The notes under the pieces: model-generated
Told to the model about the DNA's origin: nothing
Database searches by the model: none
What the model saw: only the letters and a program-made list of their open reading frames with translations
IMG/VR virus record: IMGVR_UViG_3300036791_000797
Coordinates: 1-64,000 of that record
Strand: one strand, 5' to 3'
DNA: 64,000 nucleotides
Source: a virus
Shown here: in pieces, positions 7,979 through 18,147 of the stretch
Numbering within the stretch: the first letter of the stretch is position 1
How the letters are laid out: each line of letters begins with the position of its first letter
Program-made: the position numbers and the translations under genes

Positions 7979-8899
7979 GTGTTCGAGCTTCCCGCCCTGC
8001 CGGGGGCCATCAGCACCCTCAAGAACGAGGACTCCGATCGACTCAAGCGGGAGTTCGGTGACGATCTGGCCGTCTCCCCTGAGGATTGCCGCACCTGCCG
8101 GGGCACCGGCACCTTCCTCTGGTATGCCCGTGCCGCCGCTGACGATCACGATCCCAATGAGATCGTGGAGTTCAAATGCCCGTGTGAAGACCAGTGGTTA
8201 CTCAACAGATTCCTGTTGAACTGTGGGATCAAAAACAAGTATCAACGCTTCGATTGGCATGATCTGGATACTCCCATACTTCCCCCTGAGATCATCGACT
8301 ACTTGGGCAATGCCAAGCACATCATCGATGCCGGACTGGGCCTGGTGCTGTACGGACCCGAAGGCACCGGCAAGACCCTCCTGGCCGTCCTGCTGCTCAA
8401 GACCCTTATCGCCCGTGGTCACAACGGCTACTTCACCACCTATGCCGACATGATCCAGCGCTTTCACGAAGGCCGCTTCGATCGAGAAGAGCGGGAGTGG
8501 TTTTTCCGTCGGGTCAAGCACGCCTCGGTGTTGGTCATCGATGACATTGGCCGGGAGCAGAAGCGTAAGAGACTGGAGTGGAATCGTGCTGATAGAGAGA
8601 CTGAAATGGGGAACGTTTTAGTTGATAATCAGGGTGGTGAAGTTCTTGATCTGAACACCACTGCCGAGTTTCTCTTCGAGGATGTCATCCGCCACCGGGT
8701 GGCCATGGTCTCGCCCACCTTTGTCACCTCCAACCTGCCCCTCTCGGGCCTGGCTACCAAGTACGGCAGCAACGTCATGAGCCTGCTCGATGAGCAGGCC
8801 ATCCCGGTGGAACTGTCCGGCCCCGATTGGCGCATCTCCAGCAAGGATCGGGCCACCGCCGAGGTCCACCAGGGCCTGCGCCGTCCGGTGGTGCTGTAG
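7979..8899 (+). CDS. DnaC/IstB-like helicase loader ATPase with N-terminal zinc motif
   Basis: The GTG start follows TAG directly. 306 residues. N terminus: CRTCRGTG plus CPC, a DnaJ-type CxxCxGxG knuckle. Walker A GPEGTGKT at 126-133 and Walker B VLVIDDIG at about 184-191 are intact, as in DnaC-family AAA+ proteins. Position immediately before the DnaB-type helicase supports a loader role. Between the Walker B and sensor regions lies a stretch with many Arg and Lys (REQKRKRLEW). Confidence 0.85.
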   Translation: MFELPALPGAISTLKNEDSDRLKREFGDDLAVSPEDCRTCRGTGTFLWYARAAADDHDPNEIVEFKCPCEDQWLLNRFLLNCGIKNKYQRFDWHDLDTPILPPEIIDYLGNAKHIIDAGLGLVLYGPEGTGKTLLAVLLLKTLIARGHNGYFTTYADMIQRFHEGRFDREEREWFFRRVKHASVLVIDDIGREQKRKRLEWNRADRETEMGNVLVDNQGGEVLDLNTTAEFLFEDVIRHRVAMVSPTFVTSNLPLSGLATKYGSNVMSLLDEQAIPVELSGPDWRISSKDRATAEVHQGLRRPVVL

Positions 8900-10219
8900 G
8901 TGTCCAAGCTCGGAGAGAAGCAACTGATCTGTCACCTCACCGACGACGACTCGCTGCACACCCTGGTCACCGAGGGCCTCAACCTGGCCATCGTCCCCAC
9001 CGCCTCCCTGCGGGACGTGGTGGCCTTCGCCCTGGACTACTACACGAACTCCAGCGGCAACCTGGCCCCCACCATCGAGGTGTTCGAGGCCCACGAACTG
9101 TCGGCCGGGCGTACTATCGCCAACCTCCTGGACGACCTGGAGATCCCCTGGCGGGACGGTTATGAGGTGTCCATCGAGTGGATCCTGACCGACCTGGTGG
9201 GCACCTACGTCACCTCCAAGTCCCAGACCCTCATGCGCGAGGGCGGCACCAAGCTGCTCGAAGCCGACACCGAGGACCGCCTGGAGGTCTTCTCCGACTT
9301 CGTCACCGAGGCCACCGAACTGGTCCTGTCCCTGCAGGAGCGGCGCACCAGGGTGGAGATGACCGCCGACATCGGGGAGCGGCTACTGGCCTACGAGGAC
9401 CGGGTGGCCAACAAGGACCTGCGCCGGGGCCTGACCATGGGCCTGGATCAGGTGGACGCCGTCACCTCCTTCATCCACCCCGGTGAACTGGCCATGCTGG
9501 CGGCCTTCGCCAAGCTGGGCAAGAGCTTCGCCTTGAACCGCATCGCCCTCATGGCCTGGCACTCGGGCATGCCGGTGGCACTGTTCACCCTGGAGAACGA
9601 CATCGACATGACGCTGGACCGCATGGCCTGCTTGGCCGCCGGGGTGGACCCGGCTCGTTGGCAACGCGGGGAGTGCCCCGACTTCGAGGTGGACCGGGTC
9701 CGGGACCGTTTGGACGAGATGGAGAAGTCCGACTGCCCCTTGCACATCCTCTCTCCCGATCCCGGTCAGCGCACCCCCCACGCCATGGTCCGCATGGCCC
9801 AGATCCTGGGGGCCGAGGCCATCATCATCGACCAACTCAGCCACATCGAGCATCCCGATCCGGGCCGCAAACGGGCCGACATCATCGAGACCGAGAAGCT
9901 GCGCTCGCTGCGCCTGCTGGTGGCCACCGGCCGTCACCGCATGTCCTGCCTGGTGGCTCACCAGATCAACCGGGAGGGCAAGAAGGCCGCCGATAAGCGG
10001 GGCTGGCATGAGATGTGGGACCTGGCTGAGACAGCCGGGGCCGAGCGGGAGACCGACCTGGTTTGTAGCATGTACCAGTCCAATGACATGGCCCAGGTAA
10101 AGCAAGTGCTATTCCAGATACTTGCCTCCCGGAGAACCGCCATCAAATGGTGGGAGATCAAGTGGCAGATGGAACAGGGTGACGCCAGAGTTCTGGGTGA
10201 GAAGCGGCCGTATGGCTAG
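8900..10219 (+). CDS. DnaB-type replicative helicase
   Basis: 439 residues, GTG start right after the loader stop. The RecA-like core has LAAFAKLGKSFALNRIA (Lys-Ser at 208-209), where the first P-loop Gly is replaced by Ala, and a Walker B strand AIIIDQLSH ending at Asp311. LVAHQINREGKKAADKRG resembles the DnaB H3/H4 region. The N-terminal 150 residues fit the DnaB N domain. The stop overlaps the primase start by 8 bases. Confidence 0.85.
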   Translation: MSKLGEKQLICHLTDDDSLHTLVTEGLNLAIVPTASLRDVVAFALDYYTNSSGNLAPTIEVFEAHELSAGRTIANLLDDLEIPWRDGYEVSIEWILTDLVGTYVTSKSQTLMREGGTKLLEADTEDRLEVFSDFVTEATELVLSLQERRTRVEMTADIGERLLAYEDRVANKDLRRGLTMGLDQVDAVTSFIHPGELAMLAAFAKLGKSFALNRIALMAWHSGMPVALFTLENDIDMTLDRMACLAAGVDPARWQRGECPDFEVDRVRDRLDEMEKSDCPLHILSPDPGQRTPHAMVRMAQILGAEAIIIDQLSHIEHPDPGRKRADIIETEKLRSLRLLVATGRHRMSCLVAHQINREGKKAADKRGWHEMWDLAETAGAERETDLVCSMYQSNDMAQVKQVLFQILASRRTAIKWWEIKWQMEQGDARVLGEKRPYG

Positions 10220-11306
10220 GTTTCGCACCGGGGTAACAGGAGCTAAGGAGCGGTCCAGTGACTTCCTGGTCTACTCACTGCTATCCGACACCGAGAAGGA
10301 GCGGCTGGCCCGCTCCCTGCTAGCCGAGTTCGGGGTCACCCACGTCGCCAACGTCACCAATCGGGGCGAGATGATCCACTCCTGTTGCCTGCCCCTGGGC
10401 GGGCACCGCAACGGGGACGCCAATCCCTCGGCCTCCTTCAACTTCCAGAAGCTGACCTACAACTGCTACGGCTGCGGTAATAGCGGCGGCCTGCTGTGGT
10501 TCATCGCCACCTGCCGCGGCACCTCAGCCACCGAAGCCCGGACCTGGTTGGGCTCCCAGACCGGCATCGGGGAGGAGCAGGACCTGGCCGCCTTCTTGGC
10601 CTTCTTCGACGCCCTGTGGTCACCCCAGCGGGTCGAGCATCCGCCTCTGCCAAAGTACGACCCCAGTGTCCTCGATCCCTGGCGGCTCATTCACCCCTGG
10701 CTCACCGACGGCCGTCACATTCCGGTGGAGACCCTCATCGCCTTCGACGTGGGTTACGACCCCGAGTACCGGGTGCCCCTTCATGAGGGCGAGTCCCTGC
10801 GCTGGATCACCTCGGAGCGCATCATCATCCCGCACTGGTGGCGAGGCGACCTGGTTGGTTGGCAATCCCGCCGCCTCAATGCCGACGGCACGGCCAAGTA
10901 CCTCAACAGCGGGGATTTTCCACGGGAGTTTTCTCTCTACCATTACGATCCGAAACGACCGGCGTTAGTGGTGGAATCCCCTATGAGCGTGCTGTCCAAG
11001 TATGCCATGTGTTCTGACATCGAGGCTACCTTTGGGGCTTCGGTCACCGATTACCAGGTCCAGCTATTGGCCAATCATCCTAGGGTCACGCTGTTCTTCG
11101 ACAACGATGAGCCGGGCTGGCATGCCACCGAGGAAGTTGGCAAGACTTTGATGGACTATACCGACGTGCTGGTCATCGACAATCCTTACAATGCTGACGC
11201 CGCTGATCTCACCGAGGATCTCTTCAGCGATCTGATAGCCAATCCCATCCCGTTTGCCATGTGGAAACCACCCAAGACGTTGGCGGAGTTACCCCATGCA
11301 AGTTGA
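10212..11306 (+). CDS. DNA primase with CHC2-type zinc finger and Toprim domain
   Basis: Start chosen at ATG 10212 (364 residues) inside the end of the helicase gene. The zinc site is CC-x6-H...CYGC (residues 58-88), the CHC2 pattern of DnaG-type primases. The Toprim motif is seen as ALVVESPMS and LFFDNDEPGW near residues 255-305. It would make primers for the DnaE polymerase encoded at 14.3 kb. Confidence 0.85.
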   Translation: MARFRTGVTGAKERSSDFLVYSLLSDTEKERLARSLLAEFGVTHVANVTNRGEMIHSCCLPLGGHRNGDANPSASFNFQKLTYNCYGCGNSGGLLWFIATCRGTSATEARTWLGSQTGIGEEQDLAAFLAFFDALWSPQRVEHPPLPKYDPSVLDPWRLIHPWLTDGRHIPVETLIAFDVGYDPEYRVPLHEGESLRWITSERIIIPHWWRGDLVGWQSRRLNADGTAKYLNSGDFPREFSLYHYDPKRPALVVESPMSVLSKYAMCSDIEATFGASVTDYQVQLLANHPRVTLFFDNDEPGWHATEEVGKTLMDYTDVLVIDNPYNADAADLTEDLFSDLIANPIPFAMWKPPKTLAELPHAS

Positions 11307-11523: not shown

Positions 11524-11659
11524 GCAAGACGAGGACCTGACCAAGACCGGCCCAGAGCGTCTGGCCTCCTACGAGGCCCTGGCCACCGAGATGACCGAGG
11601 AAGAGCGCCGGGCTGCCATGAGTGAAGACATACGTCGAGCGCAGGGGAATGCCCAATAA
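11483..11659 (+). CDS. Small charged hypothetical protein
   Basis: 58 residues. The ATG at 11483 has AGGAGG (11468-11473) nine bases upstream, the best ribosome site in this stretch, although it lies inside the preceding gene. The product is a charged helix (MTEEERRAAMSEDIRRAQG). It overlaps the next gene slightly. Confidence 0.5.
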   Translation: MSLRKTGSGKILNEQDEDLTKTGPERLASYEALATEMTEEERRAAMSEDIRRAQGNAQ

Positions 11660-12572
11660 TCCACCCACCCGGCCGCCCTGGGAACGCCAGCGCCCGGACA
11701 ATCCCAAGCCACCCCGGCTCAACCGCCAGGCCGGTCCCGGTGACGGGGCCTTCGCGGATGACATCTGGGTCGGTGATCCCGAGACCTGGGTGGCCGAACG
11801 CAGCCCGGCCTTCGTGGCGGCTCAGGATCGGCCCAAACCCCGAGCCGTGGAGGCCGGACCCATGGAGTTCTCCACCTCGGTAGGCCTGGAGCCCTGGCCC
11901 CTGGTCGTATGGGATGTCAATGCGTACTATGCCGAACTGGGCCTGTCCTTCCGCGCCACCCGGCGAGAGATCAGGGAGGCCTACCAGCGCCTGGCCGGGG
12001 ACGCCTCCGAGCGATTGACCTACATCGTCAAGCAACTCCTCGATCCCAGCATCCGCTCCACCTACGACGCCTGTCAGCCCGGCAGCGTCTTCTTCGATCG
12101 CTATATCGCGGAGTATGTCAAGGGCCAGATGCTGTCCGATCAGATGGCCGAGCATGGTCGTATCCTGACCTTCGATGACCAGATCGCTCAGGATCTGCAC
12201 TCCATCGACCTGAGCCAGTACATGGATCGACCGTTTGACATGGTCCCACCCATGAGCCACAATGGGCCATCTCGATGGCGCTGGGGGTTCTACCTCTGGG
12301 CCAGCGACGACTACAACACCGACAAGCTGCGCCAGTGGCAGGGACTTCTGGTAAGCGCTCTTGCTCGAAAGGGGGTCGTACTCAATCTCAGCGTCGGCCT
12401 GGTCGGCGGCTCCCTGGAGCCAATGAGGGTCGAGGCGGTTGGCTACCGAGTGGTCGCATTCCTGGACGACACTGAATCGCCAACTCTGGAGCTAGCCCAG
12501 GCTGCTGCAGACCGAGTGGTCGAGACCGTAATCATCATGCAATCCGAAAGGGTTCCCCGCCATGCCATCTAA
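11649..12572 (+). CDS. J-domain-like protein lacking HPD
   Basis: 307 residues from ATG 11649 (GTG 11622 possible). After a Pro-rich N terminus, residues 90-142 fit a J domain: YYAELGLSFRATRREIREAY, then LLDPSIRSTYD. The HPD tripeptide that triggers Hsp70 ATPase is absent; AGD (116-118) occupies the loop. The C-terminal half is unrecognised and contains a Trp-rich segment (SRWRWGFYLWAS). It lies between primase and ssDNA-binding protein, so it may be a replisome assembly factor; this is inference. Confidence 0.65.
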   Translation: MPNNPPTRPPWERQRPDNPKPPRLNRQAGPGDGAFADDIWVGDPETWVAERSPAFVAAQDRPKPRAVEAGPMEFSTSVGLEPWPLVVWDVNAYYAELGLSFRATRREIREAYQRLAGDASERLTYIVKQLLDPSIRSTYDACQPGSVFFDRYIAEYVKGQMLSDQMAEHGRILTFDDQIAQDLHSIDLSQYMDRPFDMVPPMSHNGPSRWRWGFYLWASDDYNTDKLRQWQGLLVSALARKGVVLNLSVGLVGGSLEPMRVEAVGYRVVAFLDDTESPTLELAQAAADRVVETVIIMQSERVPRHAI

Positions 12573-13761
12573 GTTTCGTACCGGAGCGGAGGAAGCTGCC
12601 AAGTCGCAGATGGCCTCCTTCAACCGGGTGGACTTCTTCTCCGTTCCCGATGGGAAGTCTGTTGTCGTCCGCTTTCTCATGGACTATGACGAGTGGCCTT
12701 CTGTAGAGGTTCACACCATGGTTCCCGTGCAGAAGAAGCAGCCGGAGGGTCGCCGTAGCTGGCCCAAGACCGTCCCGGCCATCTGCCGTCGCACCAAGCT
12801 GCCGGATGCTACCCCACTGGACGTGCAGCAGACCATGCCGCATTTCCCCTATCTGTACCCGGACTGCTACATCTGCGATTCCATCCGTAAGGCCGACGGC
12901 AAGGCCATCGGTCGTTCCTCCCGCTCTTTCACTCTGGTTGTCATCCGCGAGGAGGTCCGCGGTGACGGTAGCGATGCTCTGGGTGGCGAGGCCAACAAGG
13001 GCAAGCTGCTCGGTTACAAGGACCGCATGAAGGAAGTGGCGGTCACTGATGCCGCGGGCAAGCCCACCGGGGATGTCGAGAAGGTCCGCGACATCCAGAT
13101 CGTGCAGCAGGCCTACAGCAACTTCTTTATCCACCTGGAGGGCATGGCCGGAGTCCATGGCACCCTGCTCGACCGCGACTACTTCATCAAGCGCAAGGGC
13201 GAGTCCACCGACACCGAGTACCAGATCGTCCACCTCGACCCCCAGTACGTCAACGGGGCCAACGGGCCGGTCATCTTCGACCTGCGTGACGCCGAGTTTG
13301 CCAAGCGCTACGGCATCGAGGTCACCAGCCAGGGCCGCATCTACCCCGAGGAACTGGACCTCGACGCCCACATCGAGCGCCAGATGGGGGACCGCTACTA
13401 CGGGCTCTACATCGACCCCCGTATTCCCCAGCCTGTGGAGGGCAAGTCGGATAACTCCTCCGATGGCCAAGCCACCGCCACCCCGGTGGCCAAGCCGGAG
13501 ACCGAGGGTAGCGCCGATCAGATGGCCGCCCTACGCGATCGCGTGGTGGGCTACTCCAAGGGAGCCAACGGCCCCGCAGAGGCCCCTGCCGCCCCGGCTG
13601 TGGCTCAGGAGGCCCCGGCGGTCACGTTGCCCCCTGGAGCCACCCTGGAGCCCCCTGTGGTCCCCGCAGCGGCTCCTGCGCCCCCTCAGACCCCGGTCAC
13701 CGTCCCTGACGACATGCCGGTAGCTCCAGGCCAGCCCGTGGTGGTGCCGGACTTCGGCTGA
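12562..13761 (+). CDS. Probable single-stranded DNA-binding protein
   Basis: 399 residues. An N-terminal OB-like region (MASFNRVDFFSVPDGKS...) includes a possible zinc site (C-RRTK, CYICD near residues 75-105), as in T4 gp32-type proteins. The central part (LGYKDRMKEVAVTD...) is compact, and the last 100 residues are Pro/Ala-rich and disordered, like tails that recruit partners. Location between primase/J-protein and DnaE fits. The family call rests on overall pattern, not on one decisive motif. Confidence 0.6.
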   Translation: MPSKFRTGAEEAAKSQMASFNRVDFFSVPDGKSVVVRFLMDYDEWPSVEVHTMVPVQKKQPEGRRSWPKTVPAICRRTKLPDATPLDVQQTMPHFPYLYPDCYICDSIRKADGKAIGRSSRSFTLVVIREEVRGDGSDALGGEANKGKLLGYKDRMKEVAVTDAAGKPTGDVEKVRDIQIVQQAYSNFFIHLEGMAGVHGTLLDRDYFIKRKGESTDTEYQIVHLDPQYVNGANGPVIFDLRDAEFAKRYGIEVTSQGRIYPEELDLDAHIERQMGDRYYGLYIDPRIPQPVEGKSDNSSDGQATATPVAKPETEGSADQMAALRDRVVGYSKGANGPAEAPAAPAVAQEAPAVTLPPGATLEPPVVPAAAPAPPQTPVTVPDDMPVAPGQPVVVPDFG

Positions 13762-14003: not shown

Positions 14004-14347
14004 CCTGGCCCTGCCCGGCGGGCACGGTGGTACGGGCCGTACACCCCGACCTGGAGATCCCCATCCGCACGGCCTGCCGGGGCCACCTGTTTCAGACCAT
14101 GAACTCCGCCGTCCCGGTGGAGGCGACCTACTCCGAGTGCCGCTACGTGCAGGTCGTCACCTGTCTGGTGTGTGGCTACATCACCGCCCAACTGGATGCC
14201 GATTGGTTCCATGAAGCCACCGACGATGACATCACTGATTGCATCTACTACGTGGGTCAGATCATCGAGCATCTGCAGGAACGGCGCGAGAACCTGATCA
14301 AGCTATCCAGCAAAGCCCCGGCCTTCCTGTTACCGGCGGACATATGA
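14000..14347 (+). CDS. Hypothetical protein with two Cys/His sites
   Basis: 115 residues from GTG 14000. Contains C-x2-G-H and CLVCGY, a probable zinc ribbon at residues 30-65, followed by an acidic stretch and a C-terminal helix (DCIYYVGQIIEHLQERR). The stop overlaps the dnaE ATG (ATGA), so the two are coupled. Confidence 0.6.
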   Translation: MTWPCPAGTVVRAVHPDLEIPIRTACRGHLFQTMNSAVPVEATYSECRYVQVVTCLVCGYITAQLDADWFHEATDDDITDCIYYVGQIIEHLQERRENLIKLSSKAPAFLLPADI

Positions 14348-17300
14348 GACTCTTCACCCTCGAAGCCAATCTGCCCGGCAACGACCGAGCCATCATCAAC
14401 TTCGAAGGGGAGACCCAGGCCGCTCCCTGCGTGATGCGCGACTCCGATGACTTCCTGCATCTGATCGTGGTCACTCCCTACGTCTACAACAACACCTGGG
14501 AGCAGGCTTATCCCCTGGGGATCTCAGTGATAACTCACTACGACGGGCGAAGCTGGAACCATCTGATGGCTGATGCTTTCGTAGAGCAACGTCAAGTAGA
14601 GCCGGGTCGCTATTTCATCGGTATCGGGGCTCGCAGCCTTGATCATCCAACTCCATTCCGGCAGCTTGTTTTTGAACATGAGAAGCTCGATCAAATGGAG
14701 CGGGCCAAAGGTGGCTTCGTCAATGTCCACACCCATACCGAGTTCTCCGCCCTGGATGGCCTGTCCAAGGTTGAGGAGATCGTCAAGCTGGCCAAGGACA
14801 TGGACCAACCGGCCCTGGCCGTCACCGACCACGGCATCTGCGCCGCCCATCCTCACCTCCAGATCAAGGCTCGCGAAGCCGGGATCAAGCCTGTCTTCGG
14901 ACTGGAGGCGTACTTCGTCAACGACCGGCTGTGGCGGCCCAACGTCGAGATCCCCACTGTTACTGGCAAGGAAGCGAAGATCGACCAGGAGATGCAGGCG
15001 AAGCTGGAGGAAGCCAAGGCTGAGAGGGCACGCCAGCAGGACATCGGCAAGAACGGCTACTACCACCTGATCCTGTGGGCCATGACCACCGAGGGCCTGC
15101 ACAACCTGTGGGCCATGTCCACCGCCGCCCATCGGGAGGGCTTCTACTACCGGGCCAGGATGGACTGGGAGGTCCTGGAGCGCCTCAACACCGGCATCAT
15201 GGCCTCCACCGCCTGCCTGCGCGGCCCGCTGTCGGTGCCCCTGCTGGCCGACGACGAAGAGCTAGCCGTCCGCAACCTGGCCCGGCTGCAGAACGTCTTC
15301 GGGGACCGGCTCTACATCGAGCTTCACGCCAACCAGATCCCCGAGCAGGTCAAGGTCAACCACGGGCTCATCACCCTGGCCCAGCGCTTCAGCATCCCGC
15401 TCGTTGCTGCCGTCGATTCGCATTATCCCTGCCGGGAGGATCGCCCCACCCACCAGACCTGGCTGGCCCTGCAGACCAAGGACGACATCCAGGACGAGAA
15501 CGACCTCTTCGCCCGCAGCCAGGAGTACCACCTCATGGACCGGGCCGAGGTGTGCAACGCCCTGGAGGCCCACTATCCCAGGGGCCTGGTGTCGGCCGCC
15601 TTGGACCAGACGGTGGCCCTGGCGGAGCGTTGTGATGCCGAGGTGGTCTCCTCGTCGCGTCCGCCTATCTTCTCCAAGCCCACCCCGGCCATGCGGTACC
15701 TGACCGAGGAGGAGGTCACCCAGACCCTCCTGCAGGCCGATGTCACCCGGCTCATGGATATCTGTCTGGCCAACTGGGATCGTAAGGTCATAGGAAAGAC
15801 CAATCCAGAATCGGTGTATAGGGAGCGTTTCGAGAAAGAAATGCTCATGTATATCGACAAGAAGTTCTGTGGGTACTTCGACATTGTCAGTGACTACACC
15901 CGGTGGTCCAAGGAGCAGGGCTGGATCATGGGACCCTCCCGTGGCTCGGGTGGGGCCTGCCTGGTGGCCTATCTGGCCGACATCATCGAGATCGACCCCA
16001 TCGAGGCTGACCTGCCCCTGGCCCGGTTCATGACCCCCGGCCGGGTGGATCCCCCCGACTTCGACCTGGACTGGCCCACCACGGTGCGAACCCCGCTGCA
16101 GACCTACGTGGCCGAGCGGTGGGGTGAGGGCCATGTGGTGCGCGTCGGCACCCACACCCGGCTGAAGAACAAGGGCGTCTTCCGCTCCCTGGCCATGATC
16201 TACAAGTCCGACCCGGATCGCCAGGTGGACTTCCGGGACCTGGAGGCCATCATCGAGATCATCCGGGCCGAGGAGGCTGACTCCGCCGGGCTGGGCAAGC
16301 CCTGGGACGTGGTCTACCTGGCCAACGAGGATGTCTTCGCCCCCTACGTGGTCAAGTACCCGTGGCTGTTCGACCTGGCCGACAAGCTGGTGGGACGGCT
16401 CAAGAGCTACGGTCGTCACGCCGCGGGGATGGTCATCTCCACCGAAAACACCCTGACCGACTGGCTGCCTATGCGAATGGGCGAAGACGGTCACATGATC
16501 TCCGACTTCGACATGGAGGCCCTGGAGAAGCTCCACCTTCTCAAGTTCGATTTACTCACCTTACGCACGCTCGATACGTTGCAGGAATGCATTGATCTGA
16601 TCCACAAGCGCCGTCCCGATGCGCGTGTGGACATCTACTCCTGGGCCAAGGAGATGTACCAGGATCCCCTGGTCTGGGAGGGCATCCGGGATGGCTACAC
16701 CATGGGCCTGTTTCAGGTGGAGACCCCGGCGGTGACCGGGTTGATCCGCCGTATCCAGCCCAACAACCTCGATGAACTGGCTGACGTGATCACCCTGGTG
16801 CGGCCCGGTCCTACCAACTCCGGCCTGACCAATACCTACATACGTCGCAAGTTCGATCAGGAGCCCATCTCAGTCCCAGATCCCCGGCTGGTCGATGTCC
16901 TCTCCAAGACCTACGGCTGCATCGTCTACCAGGAGGACATCATCAACGTCTGTCGCATCCTGGCCGGGTACGACGAAGAAGAAGCAGACGCAGTTCGCAA
17001 GGTGCTTGGTAAAAAGAAGATCGAACAGGTCACTACCATGGGGCAAAAGTTCATCCCCGCCTGCGTCGAAAGAGGGATGGATAAAGAGGCCGCCGAATCC
17101 CTGTGGCATCAAATGGCGGAGTTTTCCAAGTACAGCTTCAACCGTGCCCACGCCTATGCCTACGCTGTTCTTTGCTATTGGACGGCCTGGTTCAAGTTCC
17201 ATTACACCCCGGAGTTTCTCACCTCGGTGCTGTCCACTGCCGACAAGGTCCGTATCCCGGACTTCGTCAACGAGGCCCGGCGCATGCACTTCAAGGTGCT

Positions 17301-18147
17301 GCCGCCCGACATCAATGAGTCCGGGAAGGGGTTCACCGCCTATGACACCTCGGTGCGCTACGCCCTGGACGGCATCAAGGGCGTGGGGGACGCGGTGGTC
17401 GAGGCCCTGGTCTCCGGCCAGCCCTATGCCAGCTTCGAGGACTTCCTGGAGCGCAAGGGAAAGGCTTGCAACGACGGTCACGTCCGGCTGCTAGCGGAGG
17501 TGGGGGTCTTCGACAGCGTCTACCCCCATCGCCATGAGCTAGAAGTTCATCTGAACTATCAGGCCACCCCGGAGTCCACCCAGTGCGTCCACCTGGACCG
17601 TACCAGCACGGTGCCCAATGGTTTGCCCTGCGGCTTCGATTGGTCCTCCGAGCCGGTGGAGTTCTCCAAGACCGGCAAGCCCAAGAAGGCCAAGCCGTTG
17701 CCCACCAAGTGCTTCAAGGGCTGCCGCCGCTACACCGCCCCGCCGCCCTGGACCCCCGAGGTGGATCCTTACACCCCCTCTGACATCCAGGACAAGGAGA
17801 TGGAACACCTGGGCGTCTGGCTGTCCTCGACCCCCTTCGACCGTATCCCGCCCAAGGACCTGGAGATGTGCCACACTGCAGACTCCGTAGTGCGCGGTCC
17901 CCTCGGGCCATACCTTGTCGCCGCTATCATCGAGAAGGTAAACCGCCGTCGGGATCGTTATGACAACGAGTATGCCTGGGTCAAGCTCTTTGCCCAGACA
18001 GGCTCATTCGATACGGTGTGCTGGAGCAAGACATTCGATGAACTGAAGAACATGCTCCGGGAGGACATCCTGGTGATCGCCTACGTGAACAAGAAGATAA
18101 GTCGAGAGCGTGAAACCTATGAACTCACAGCCGTGATGCCTGTGTAG
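14344..18147 (+). CDS. dnaE: DNA polymerase III alpha subunit (DnaE type, with PHP domain)
   Basis: 1267 residues, a full-size C-family polymerase. The start at ATG 14344 is preferred over 14239 because of the ATGA overlap. An N-terminal extension of about 125 residues precedes the PHP domain (VNVHTHTEFSALDGL, His129/His131, then AVTDHG). The palm contains PSRGSGGACLVAYL and the catalytic PDFDLDW with Asp574 and Asp576. Later blocks such as YGCIVYQEDI and YSFNRAHAYAYA are typical DnaE. It is the phage replicative polymerase, working with the helicase, loader and primase upstream. Confidence 0.93.
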   Translation: MRLFTLEANLPGNDRAIINFEGETQAAPCVMRDSDDFLHLIVVTPYVYNNTWEQAYPLGISVITHYDGRSWNHLMADAFVEQRQVEPGRYFIGIGARSLDHPTPFRQLVFEHEKLDQMERAKGGFVNVHTHTEFSALDGLSKVEEIVKLAKDMDQPALAVTDHGICAAHPHLQIKAREAGIKPVFGLEAYFVNDRLWRPNVEIPTVTGKEAKIDQEMQAKLEEAKAERARQQDIGKNGYYHLILWAMTTEGLHNLWAMSTAAHREGFYYRARMDWEVLERLNTGIMASTACLRGPLSVPLLADDEELAVRNLARLQNVFGDRLYIELHANQIPEQVKVNHGLITLAQRFSIPLVAAVDSHYPCREDRPTHQTWLALQTKDDIQDENDLFARSQEYHLMDRAEVCNALEAHYPRGLVSAALDQTVALAERCDAEVVSSSRPPIFSKPTPAMRYLTEEEVTQTLLQADVTRLMDICLANWDRKVIGKTNPESVYRERFEKEMLMYIDKKFCGYFDIVSDYTRWSKEQGWIMGPSRGSGGACLVAYLADIIEIDPIEADLPLARFMTPGRVDPPDFDLDWPTTVRTPLQTYVAERWGEGHVVRVGTHTRLKNKGVFRSLAMIYKSDPDRQVDFRDLEAIIEIIRAEEADSAGLGKPWDVVYLANEDVFAPYVVKYPWLFDLADKLVGRLKSYGRHAAGMVISTENTLTDWLPMRMGEDGHMISDFDMEALEKLHLLKFDLLTLRTLDTLQECIDLIHKRRPDARVDIYSWAKEMYQDPLVWEGIRDGYTMGLFQVETPAVTGLIRRIQPNNLDELADVITLVRPGPTNSGLTNTYIRRKFDQEPISVPDPRLVDVLSKTYGCIVYQEDIINVCRILAGYDEEEADAVRKVLGKKKIEQVTTMGQKFIPACVERGMDKEAAESLWHQMAEFSKYSFNRAHAYAYAVLCYWTAWFKFHYTPEFLTSVLSTADKVRIPDFVNEARRMHFKVLPPDINESGKGFTAYDTSVRYALDGIKGVGDAVVEALVSGQPYASFEDFLERKGKACNDGHVRLLAEVGVFDSVYPHRHELEVHLNYQATPESTQCVHLDRTSTVPNGLPCGFDWSSEPVEFSKTGKPKKAKPLPTKCFKGCRRYTAPPPWTPEVDPYTPSDIQDKEMEHLGVWLSSTPFDRIPPKDLEMCHTADSVVRGPLGPYLVAAIIEKVNRRRDRYDNEYAWVKLFAQTGSFDTVCWSKTFDELKNMLREDILVIAYVNKKISRERETYELTAVMPV

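Follow-up and report, generated by a model that had tools for sequence, protein, structure and literature searches.

A phage J-domain-like protein without the HPD motif, encoded in a replication operon and possibly serving as a replisome adaptor

A J-domain-like protein that lacks the HPD motif is encoded in the replication operon of a virus (IMG/VR record IMGVR_UViG_3300036791_000797, 84,645 bases), of which positions 1 to 64,000, on one strand, were analysed (hereafter the window). The descent of the protein, judged by sequence, from the actinobacteriophage DnaJ-like chaperonin family (PHROG 2778), the deletion that removed the HPD loop, the predicted fold, the purifying selection on the gene, its operon slot, and two contigs in which it forms one frame with the single-stranded DNA-binding protein (SSB) were all computed. 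We put it at slightly better than even that the protein, J-like by descent and altered by one deletion, is a probably Hsp70-independent, small protein–protein adaptor at the phage replisome, perhaps linked to SSB. The fuller account, in which one deletion would have turned a DnaK-recruiting J cochaperone into an Hsp70-independent, SSB-linked replisome subunit in phage-plasmids and large phages, of which Streptomyces harbours some, is offered tentatively, at somewhat under an even chance. Coordinates are collected in Table 1.

Table 1. The J-like gene, its parts, and neighbouring replication genes in the window.
Feature	Position	Strand	Basis or remark
DnaC-like helicase loader	7979..8899	+	PHROG 50, E 1.1e-31
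DnaB-like replicative helicase	8900..10219	+	PHROG 19, E 3.8e-31
DNA primase	10200..11306	+	PHROG 47, E 4.7e-47; start provisional, ORF listing from 10122
Small ORF, 73 aa	11302..11523	+	no PHROG match up to E 1
J-like protein gene	11649..12572	+	307 aa; ATG start; TAA stop included
N-terminal tail, residues 1–84	11649..11900	+	low model confidence
J-like domain (predicted), residues 90–146	11916..12086	+	superposition on solved J domains; hhalign with HPD-bearing family
Shortened helix II–loop–helix III hairpin, residues 105–131, without HPD tip	11961..12041	+	
A-G-D in the turn replacing the HPD loop	11994..12002	+	G117 is the kept residue
C-terminal alpha-beta-beta-beta-alpha domain (predicted), residues 214–300	12288..12548	+	common to HPD-bearing relatives
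SSB gene	12562..13761	+	PHROG 9721 and 1607, E 3e-9 and 5e-9
DnaE-like DNA polymerase III alpha	14239..18147	+	matched to named phages' DnaE-like genes; start provisional

The J-like peptide at 11916–12074 that had been noticed in the original prediction is present, inside the plus-strand ORF of the J-like gene. The Pfam DnaJ profile (PF00226) matched the window protein at 16.1 bits (E 0.012), below its gathering cut-off of 27.8, and since this match spans helices I–II only (positions 2–25 of 63), sequence alone is marginal for J identity. The family PHROG 2778, which has no named function, matched the protein at E 1.6e-7, and was also matched by the proteins of E3 (7e-80), Pupper (1.2e-63), and L022 (3e-73), those of E3 and Pupper being annotated 'DnaJ-like'. 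When a profile of the HPD-less proteins (8 rows) was compared with a profile of the HPD-bearing phage proteins (12 rows) using hhalign, the two families aligned at E 1.3e-19 over 194 columns, an alignment that takes in the C-terminal domain. A sequence search of the PDB with the HPD-less profile gave weak matches only, the best being helices I–II of DnaJ (E 0.005).

The window protein was modelled using AlphaFold with an alignment of 15 sequences, six of them HPD-bearing. The model had a mean pLDDT of 54.9, with values below 50 over residues 1–85, covering an N-terminal tail that mostly has no counterpart in the alignment of HPD-bearing relatives, and values of 74–83 in the segments holding the four J helices (residues 93–97, 105–114, 121–131, and 133–140). 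Foldseek searches of the PDB with this model returned nothing below E 0.001, the best match being Thermus DnaJ (0.034), and a search of a viral model library returned three matches below that value, all of them actinophage 'DnaJ-like chaperonins' (Myrna, Finch, and ET08). Residues 90–146 were superposed by VIA-align on a human DnaJ-kinase chimera (Z 8.3, rmsd 1.9 over 57 residues) and on the J domain of CbpA (Z 8.0, rmsd 1.7 over 56 residues), and solved J domains took the first eleven rows of matches to the window model, although the tool warns that Z scores of such size in helical bundles can reflect a common arrangement. The model of the HPD-bearing E3 homologue (mean pLDDT 73.0) had the same element order, and reached Z 10.3–10.4 to J domains. 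A four-helix J fold in residues 90–146 is predicted with moderate confidence. Structure prediction had been set beforehand as the test of a J-domain-like fold, and the four predicted helices, superposable on solved J domains, together with the profile homology to the HPD-bearing phage family, agree with that claim, no model lacking the fold having been obtained.

Relatives were collected by eight IMG/VR scans, two genome-contig scans, and protein searches of phages and plasmids. The first genome-contig scan found no relative, and the last IMG/VR scan returned 8 loci, every one on contigs already collected. H33, P34, and D35 are all missing in 38 of 38 collected rows of the lineage (32 distinct proteins; six rows are identical to others), a count that holds for the lineage and should not be read as a survey of phage J proteins in general, since this set was collected with HPD-less or mixed queries. 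L089 and L110 were left uncounted beside L075 and L088, whose contigs have equal lengths to theirs. Start codons were assigned by inspection; no candidate lies ahead of the match in L040, contig ends mark the beginning of L073 and L084, and the starts of L074 and L125 are provisional. HPD was present in 13 of 13 relatives outside the lineage (named Rhodococcus, Gordonia, and Mycobacterium phages, and IMG/VR contigs), having been read in nine of 227 matched phage records (E3, SCentae, Pupper, Skog, Finch, Stormageddon, Tonenili, Phabba, and Alice) and also in L047. Searches of named phages with the L014, L019, L075, and L076 proteins gave no HPD-less member among the matches listed.

After seven copies had been dropped (L063, L068, L080, L081, L083, L085, and L087), a maximum-likelihood tree was built from 44 rows (31 HPD-less, 13 HPD-bearing), using columns filled in at least 55% of rows. 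One branch of this unrooted tree parts HPD-less from HPD-bearing proteins (support 100/100, and 100% of 200 bootstrap trees), the HPD columns themselves not being among those kept, and an earlier tree of 39 rows agrees on the split. Since a single branch separates the two sets, one ancestral loss of HPD in the lineage appears simplest, the change being read as a loss because HPD is the rule in J domains.

What had been read as an HPD loop changed to AGD is a deletion of 11–12 residues that takes out the loop together with the facing ends of helices II and III. These helices have 15 residues each in the E3 model (49–63 and 72–86) versus 10 and 11 residues in the window model, and the core from Y to D is 47–51 residues long in 34 HPD-less rows versus 59–60 in 12 others. 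The G of the short turn (G117) is kept in all 38 rows, the next position is D in only 6, and AGD as a point-mutated HPD was rejected on this family alignment.

Positions facing Hsp70 were numbered by alignment to E. coli DnaJ (K-12), whose DnaK-contact positions include K26, K48, and K51 (PMC8215388). The position of K26 is basic in 1 of 38 HPD-less rows (3 counting H) versus 11 of 13 HPD-bearing rows (counting H), and that of K51 in none, with T in all 38, versus 9 of 13 (K, R, or H). At the position of K48, basic in none versus 3 of 13 (counting H), the loss says little because HPD-bearing rows are also mostly non-basic there. The window protein has Q, E, and T at these three positions and keeps R22 and R27; the former position is basic in 33 and the latter in 9 of the 38 rows, so some weak DnaK contact is conceivable. 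T124, which aligns with the DnaK-contacting K51, is invariant in the 38 HPD-less rows, and among residues of the fold Y6 and Y7 are kept in all 38, and L10, G11, L57, and R63 in 37. These alignments give good support to the statement that such a protein could not stimulate Hsp70 in the usual way, with HPD absent throughout and the K26, K48, and K51 positions nearly all non-basic.

An Hsp70 match was found in 0 of 20 records searched, several of which are fragmentary. The DnaJ profile found nothing but the J-like gene, below the cut-off, in eight of the 10 HPD-less records among them, and nothing at all in the other two; all of the 10 HPD-bearing records were above the cut-off. A compensating second phage J protein or phage Hsp70 was rejected for now, none being present in the records searched, where either could be missed because several records are fragments.

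In the window, the order of genes is DnaC-like loader, DnaB helicase, primase, the 73-residue ORF, the J-like gene, SSB, and DnaE, with an 11-base overlap between the end of the J-like gene and the start of SSB at its ATG. The placement between primase and SSB given in the original prediction is correct as to the slot, but the small ORF separates primase from the J-like gene. Gene order was tabulated for 46 of 51 rows (without L101, L122, L124, L125, and L127), taking the best tblastn matches at E up to 0.01. J was followed by SSB in 46 of 46 rows, primase preceded J in 44 (the other two contigs begin at J), and SSB was followed by DnaE in 44 (two loci end before DnaE). DnaB was not found by tblastn in L064, despite 4.3 kb upstream. 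The primase–J–SSB slot was also seen in the named phages E3, SCentae, Skog, Finch, Stormageddon, Tonenili, Phabba, and Alice.

Two metagenomic contigs, placed on separate branches of the tree, have the J-like protein and SSB joined in one stop-free frame (L074, 4444–6261; L125, 2432–4219), and the window SSB matches the second part of these frames at 1.6e-27 and 2.3e-47, respectively. In L074, SSB may also be made alone, because AAGGAG precedes its ATG. A frame error in metagenome assembly is possible for either contig, and the joint frames are supportive of a link to SSB, not decisive.

Several other features of these loci were recorded. The DnaC-like loader of the window has a CxxCxGxG motif resembling the one in the DnaJ zinc domain, as do the loaders of L065, L067, L068, L074, and Tonenili; the reading of this motif as a zinc motif split off from DnaJ was dropped, since it had no consistent relation to HPD loss. 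In phage E3 the small ORF is separated from the J gene by a putative HNH endonuclease gene (L004, 3385–3996, gp151). Mycobacterium phage Tonenili has a second weak DnaJ-domain match (KX752698.1, 155248–155355; 20.1 bits, positions 15–48) outside the replication operon.

DnaJ takes part in disassembly of the lambda O–P–DnaB complex. More generally, Hsp70 dismantles replication complexes, of which this is one example, and J cochaperones position Hsp70 through HPD and a basic patch (PMC8215388). On the simplest reading, host DnaK would have been brought to the phage primosome, or to SSB, by the ancestral J protein. One ancestral deletion would then have taken away the HPD loop along with the ends of helices II and III on either side of it, while the J fold was otherwise retained, as was the C-terminal domain; the grip on replication proteins, the client half, would have stayed, the Hsp70 plug and with it Hsp70 activity would have gone, and the J-like protein would have become a small protein–protein adaptor in the phage replisome. 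Because the whole lineage shares the cut, the fold was probably put to a new use at the replication machine. The suggestion that the fold serves as a replisome scaffold fits the fixed slot, the overlap with the SSB gene, and the two J–SSB frames, but binding to the replisome and partnership with SSB are themselves what we infer, and adjacency in a phage operon is no proof of a replication function.

The same observations bear on two other readings, both centred on the chaperone machinery. The protein might dock host DnaK without stimulating it, sequestering it or bringing it to the replisome; the J fold is kept, the window protein is basic at both R22 and R27, and Rki of Escherichia phage RB43 is described as acting on host DnaK through its J domain (PMC3486835). 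A lasting decoy, however, would be expected to retain its contact surface, the lineage has lost HPD and nearly all basic residues at the K26, K48, and K51 positions, and in Rki the substitution H38Q, which falls in HPD, is reported to have abolished ATPase stimulation and to have failed to complement the deletion mutant (PMC3486835). With most known contact positions lost, the proposal that host DnaK is recruited or sequestered is unlikely, and we regard it as unsupported, the R22 and R27 positions notwithstanding. Equally unlikely, in our estimate, is a partnership with an HPD-bearing J protein such as host DnaJ, after the manner of Pam16 with Pam18, by which that protein would be regulated or diverted, phage sensing included. 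A precedent exists in J-like proteins that probably heterodimerize (PMC11349236), and the partner would have to be a host protein because no other DnaJ domain was found in the 10 HPD-less records; against this, the slot, the SSB overlap, and the two J–SSB frames point to replication.

Two further readings turn on the C-terminal domain and on selection. Models of this domain from both branches (window and E3) have the order alpha-beta-beta-beta-alpha, and at Z 6–7, a range where the tool warns of common arrangements, the window model weakly matched selecase, abylysin, and SPRTN and viral SprT-like models, and the E3 model weakly matched Wss1. The HExxH zinc motif was found in 0 of 46 rows, and a SprT/Wss1/minigluzincin-like fold is a lead only. 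A dsRBD was also considered from the element order; none was among the matches listed, an absence that proves nothing. Selection was estimated by simple Nei–Gojobori counts. For the J region, dN/dS of the window gene was 0.15 against L065 and 0.24 against L067 (whole gene, 0.21 and 0.25), and 0.12–0.27 in three other pairs; for the C-terminal domain it was 0.61 against L065, where dS was very low (0.08), and 0.23 against L067. The frames are open through the C-terminal domain in the rows read. By these counts, the J-like gene is under purifying selection. It is quite unlikely that a degenerate SprT/Wss1-like domain, acting on DNA–protein complexes, is the working part and the J-like domain a structural remnant: the weak fold matches suggest such a role, but the missing zinc motif, and a J region that is conserved, selected, and marked by invariant residues, argue against it. 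That the J domain is a decaying relic in a protein that does little is very improbable and already largely refuted; HPD is lost, and Pfam DnaJ scores of HPD-less proteins are below the cut-off or there is no match, yet the core of 47–51 residues has stayed constant despite deep divergence, the frames are open, and G117 and T124 are newly invariant. A degenerate pseudogene was rejected on the same grounds, namely J-region dN/dS well below 1, conserved core length, and the two invariant residues.

An Hsp70-independent adaptor, the preferred reading, may be set beside known systems. The PHROG 2778 proteins (among them Rhodococcus phage E3 gp152, Gordonia phage SCentae gp149, and Mycobacterium phage Alice gp194) are like the window protein in full-length homology, in joining a J domain to an alpha-beta-beta-beta-alpha C-terminal domain, and in the slot primase–J–SSB–DnaE; they differ in that the relatives read have HPD where the window lineage has its deletion, and in that the N-terminal tail is longer in the window subclade. 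Phage J proteins already known include Rki (PMC3486835) and the moraphage DnaJ (PMC12619734). Rki, compared here by description, shares with the window protein its standing as a phage J or J-like protein with a C-terminal domain of its own, but unlike the window protein it has HPD, stimulates the DnaK ATPase, and stabilizes sigma32 (PMC3486835). TbPam16/TbPam18 and yeast Pam16, like the window protein, have a J fold without HPD, and the trypanosome pair is proposed to be Hsp70-independent and to serve mitochondrial DNA replication; TbPam18, however, has an HSD substitution rather than a loop deletion, and the pair are inner-membrane proteins (PMC11349236); beyond the J fold, we claim no kinship with the window protein for any of these. 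Structural matches to the window model also included RSP16 (Chlamydomonas radial spoke), Tetrahymena complex I, and the trypanosome mitoribosome protein mL77, J folds that are built into machines but, unlike the window protein, are eukaryotic. Phage J proteins and eukaryotic J-like proteins are both known; no report of an HPD-less J-like phage family was found in the open-access literature searched. Because it is without an HPD-bearing J domain, the window lineage was classed, on its descent, as derived J-like rather than as a J cochaperone.

The usual definition of a J domain rests on HPD and Hsp70. We know of no earlier phage case in which a J domain was turned to DNA replication independently of Hsp70, and the present one, if true, would be the first. 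HPD-bearing and HPD-less branches in one operon slot make a natural before-and-after pair, and raise the question of what job the ancestral J protein did with DnaK at the replisome, and what remained of it after the contact was lost.

Members of the lineage were also found in Streptomyces. One is encoded on plasmid pRLB1-9.1 of Streptomyces sp. RLB1-9 (circular, 154,158 bases), which also encodes an HK97-fold major capsid protein and a ParB-type protein, has replication genes of phage type, and is probably a phage-plasmid; others are on contigs of Streptomyces sp. MH60 (156,949 bases) and Streptomyces sp. A0642 (152,548 bases). When 392 genomes from the genus to which Streptomyces sp. A0642 belongs were searched, a member was found in one, the seed itself. 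The pRLB1-9.1 homologue is annotated 'J domain-containing protein', which suggests a cochaperone, and this it probably is not. The replication operon of this plasmid includes a WhiB-family regulator gene (NZ_CP041653.1, 37436–38008, L088), placed after the gene for the DnaB-like helicase, and elsewhere on the plasmid an annotated ATP-grasp-modified RiPP gene (tgmA; NZ_CP041653.1, 70814–71032, L091) adjoins an ATP-grasp protein.
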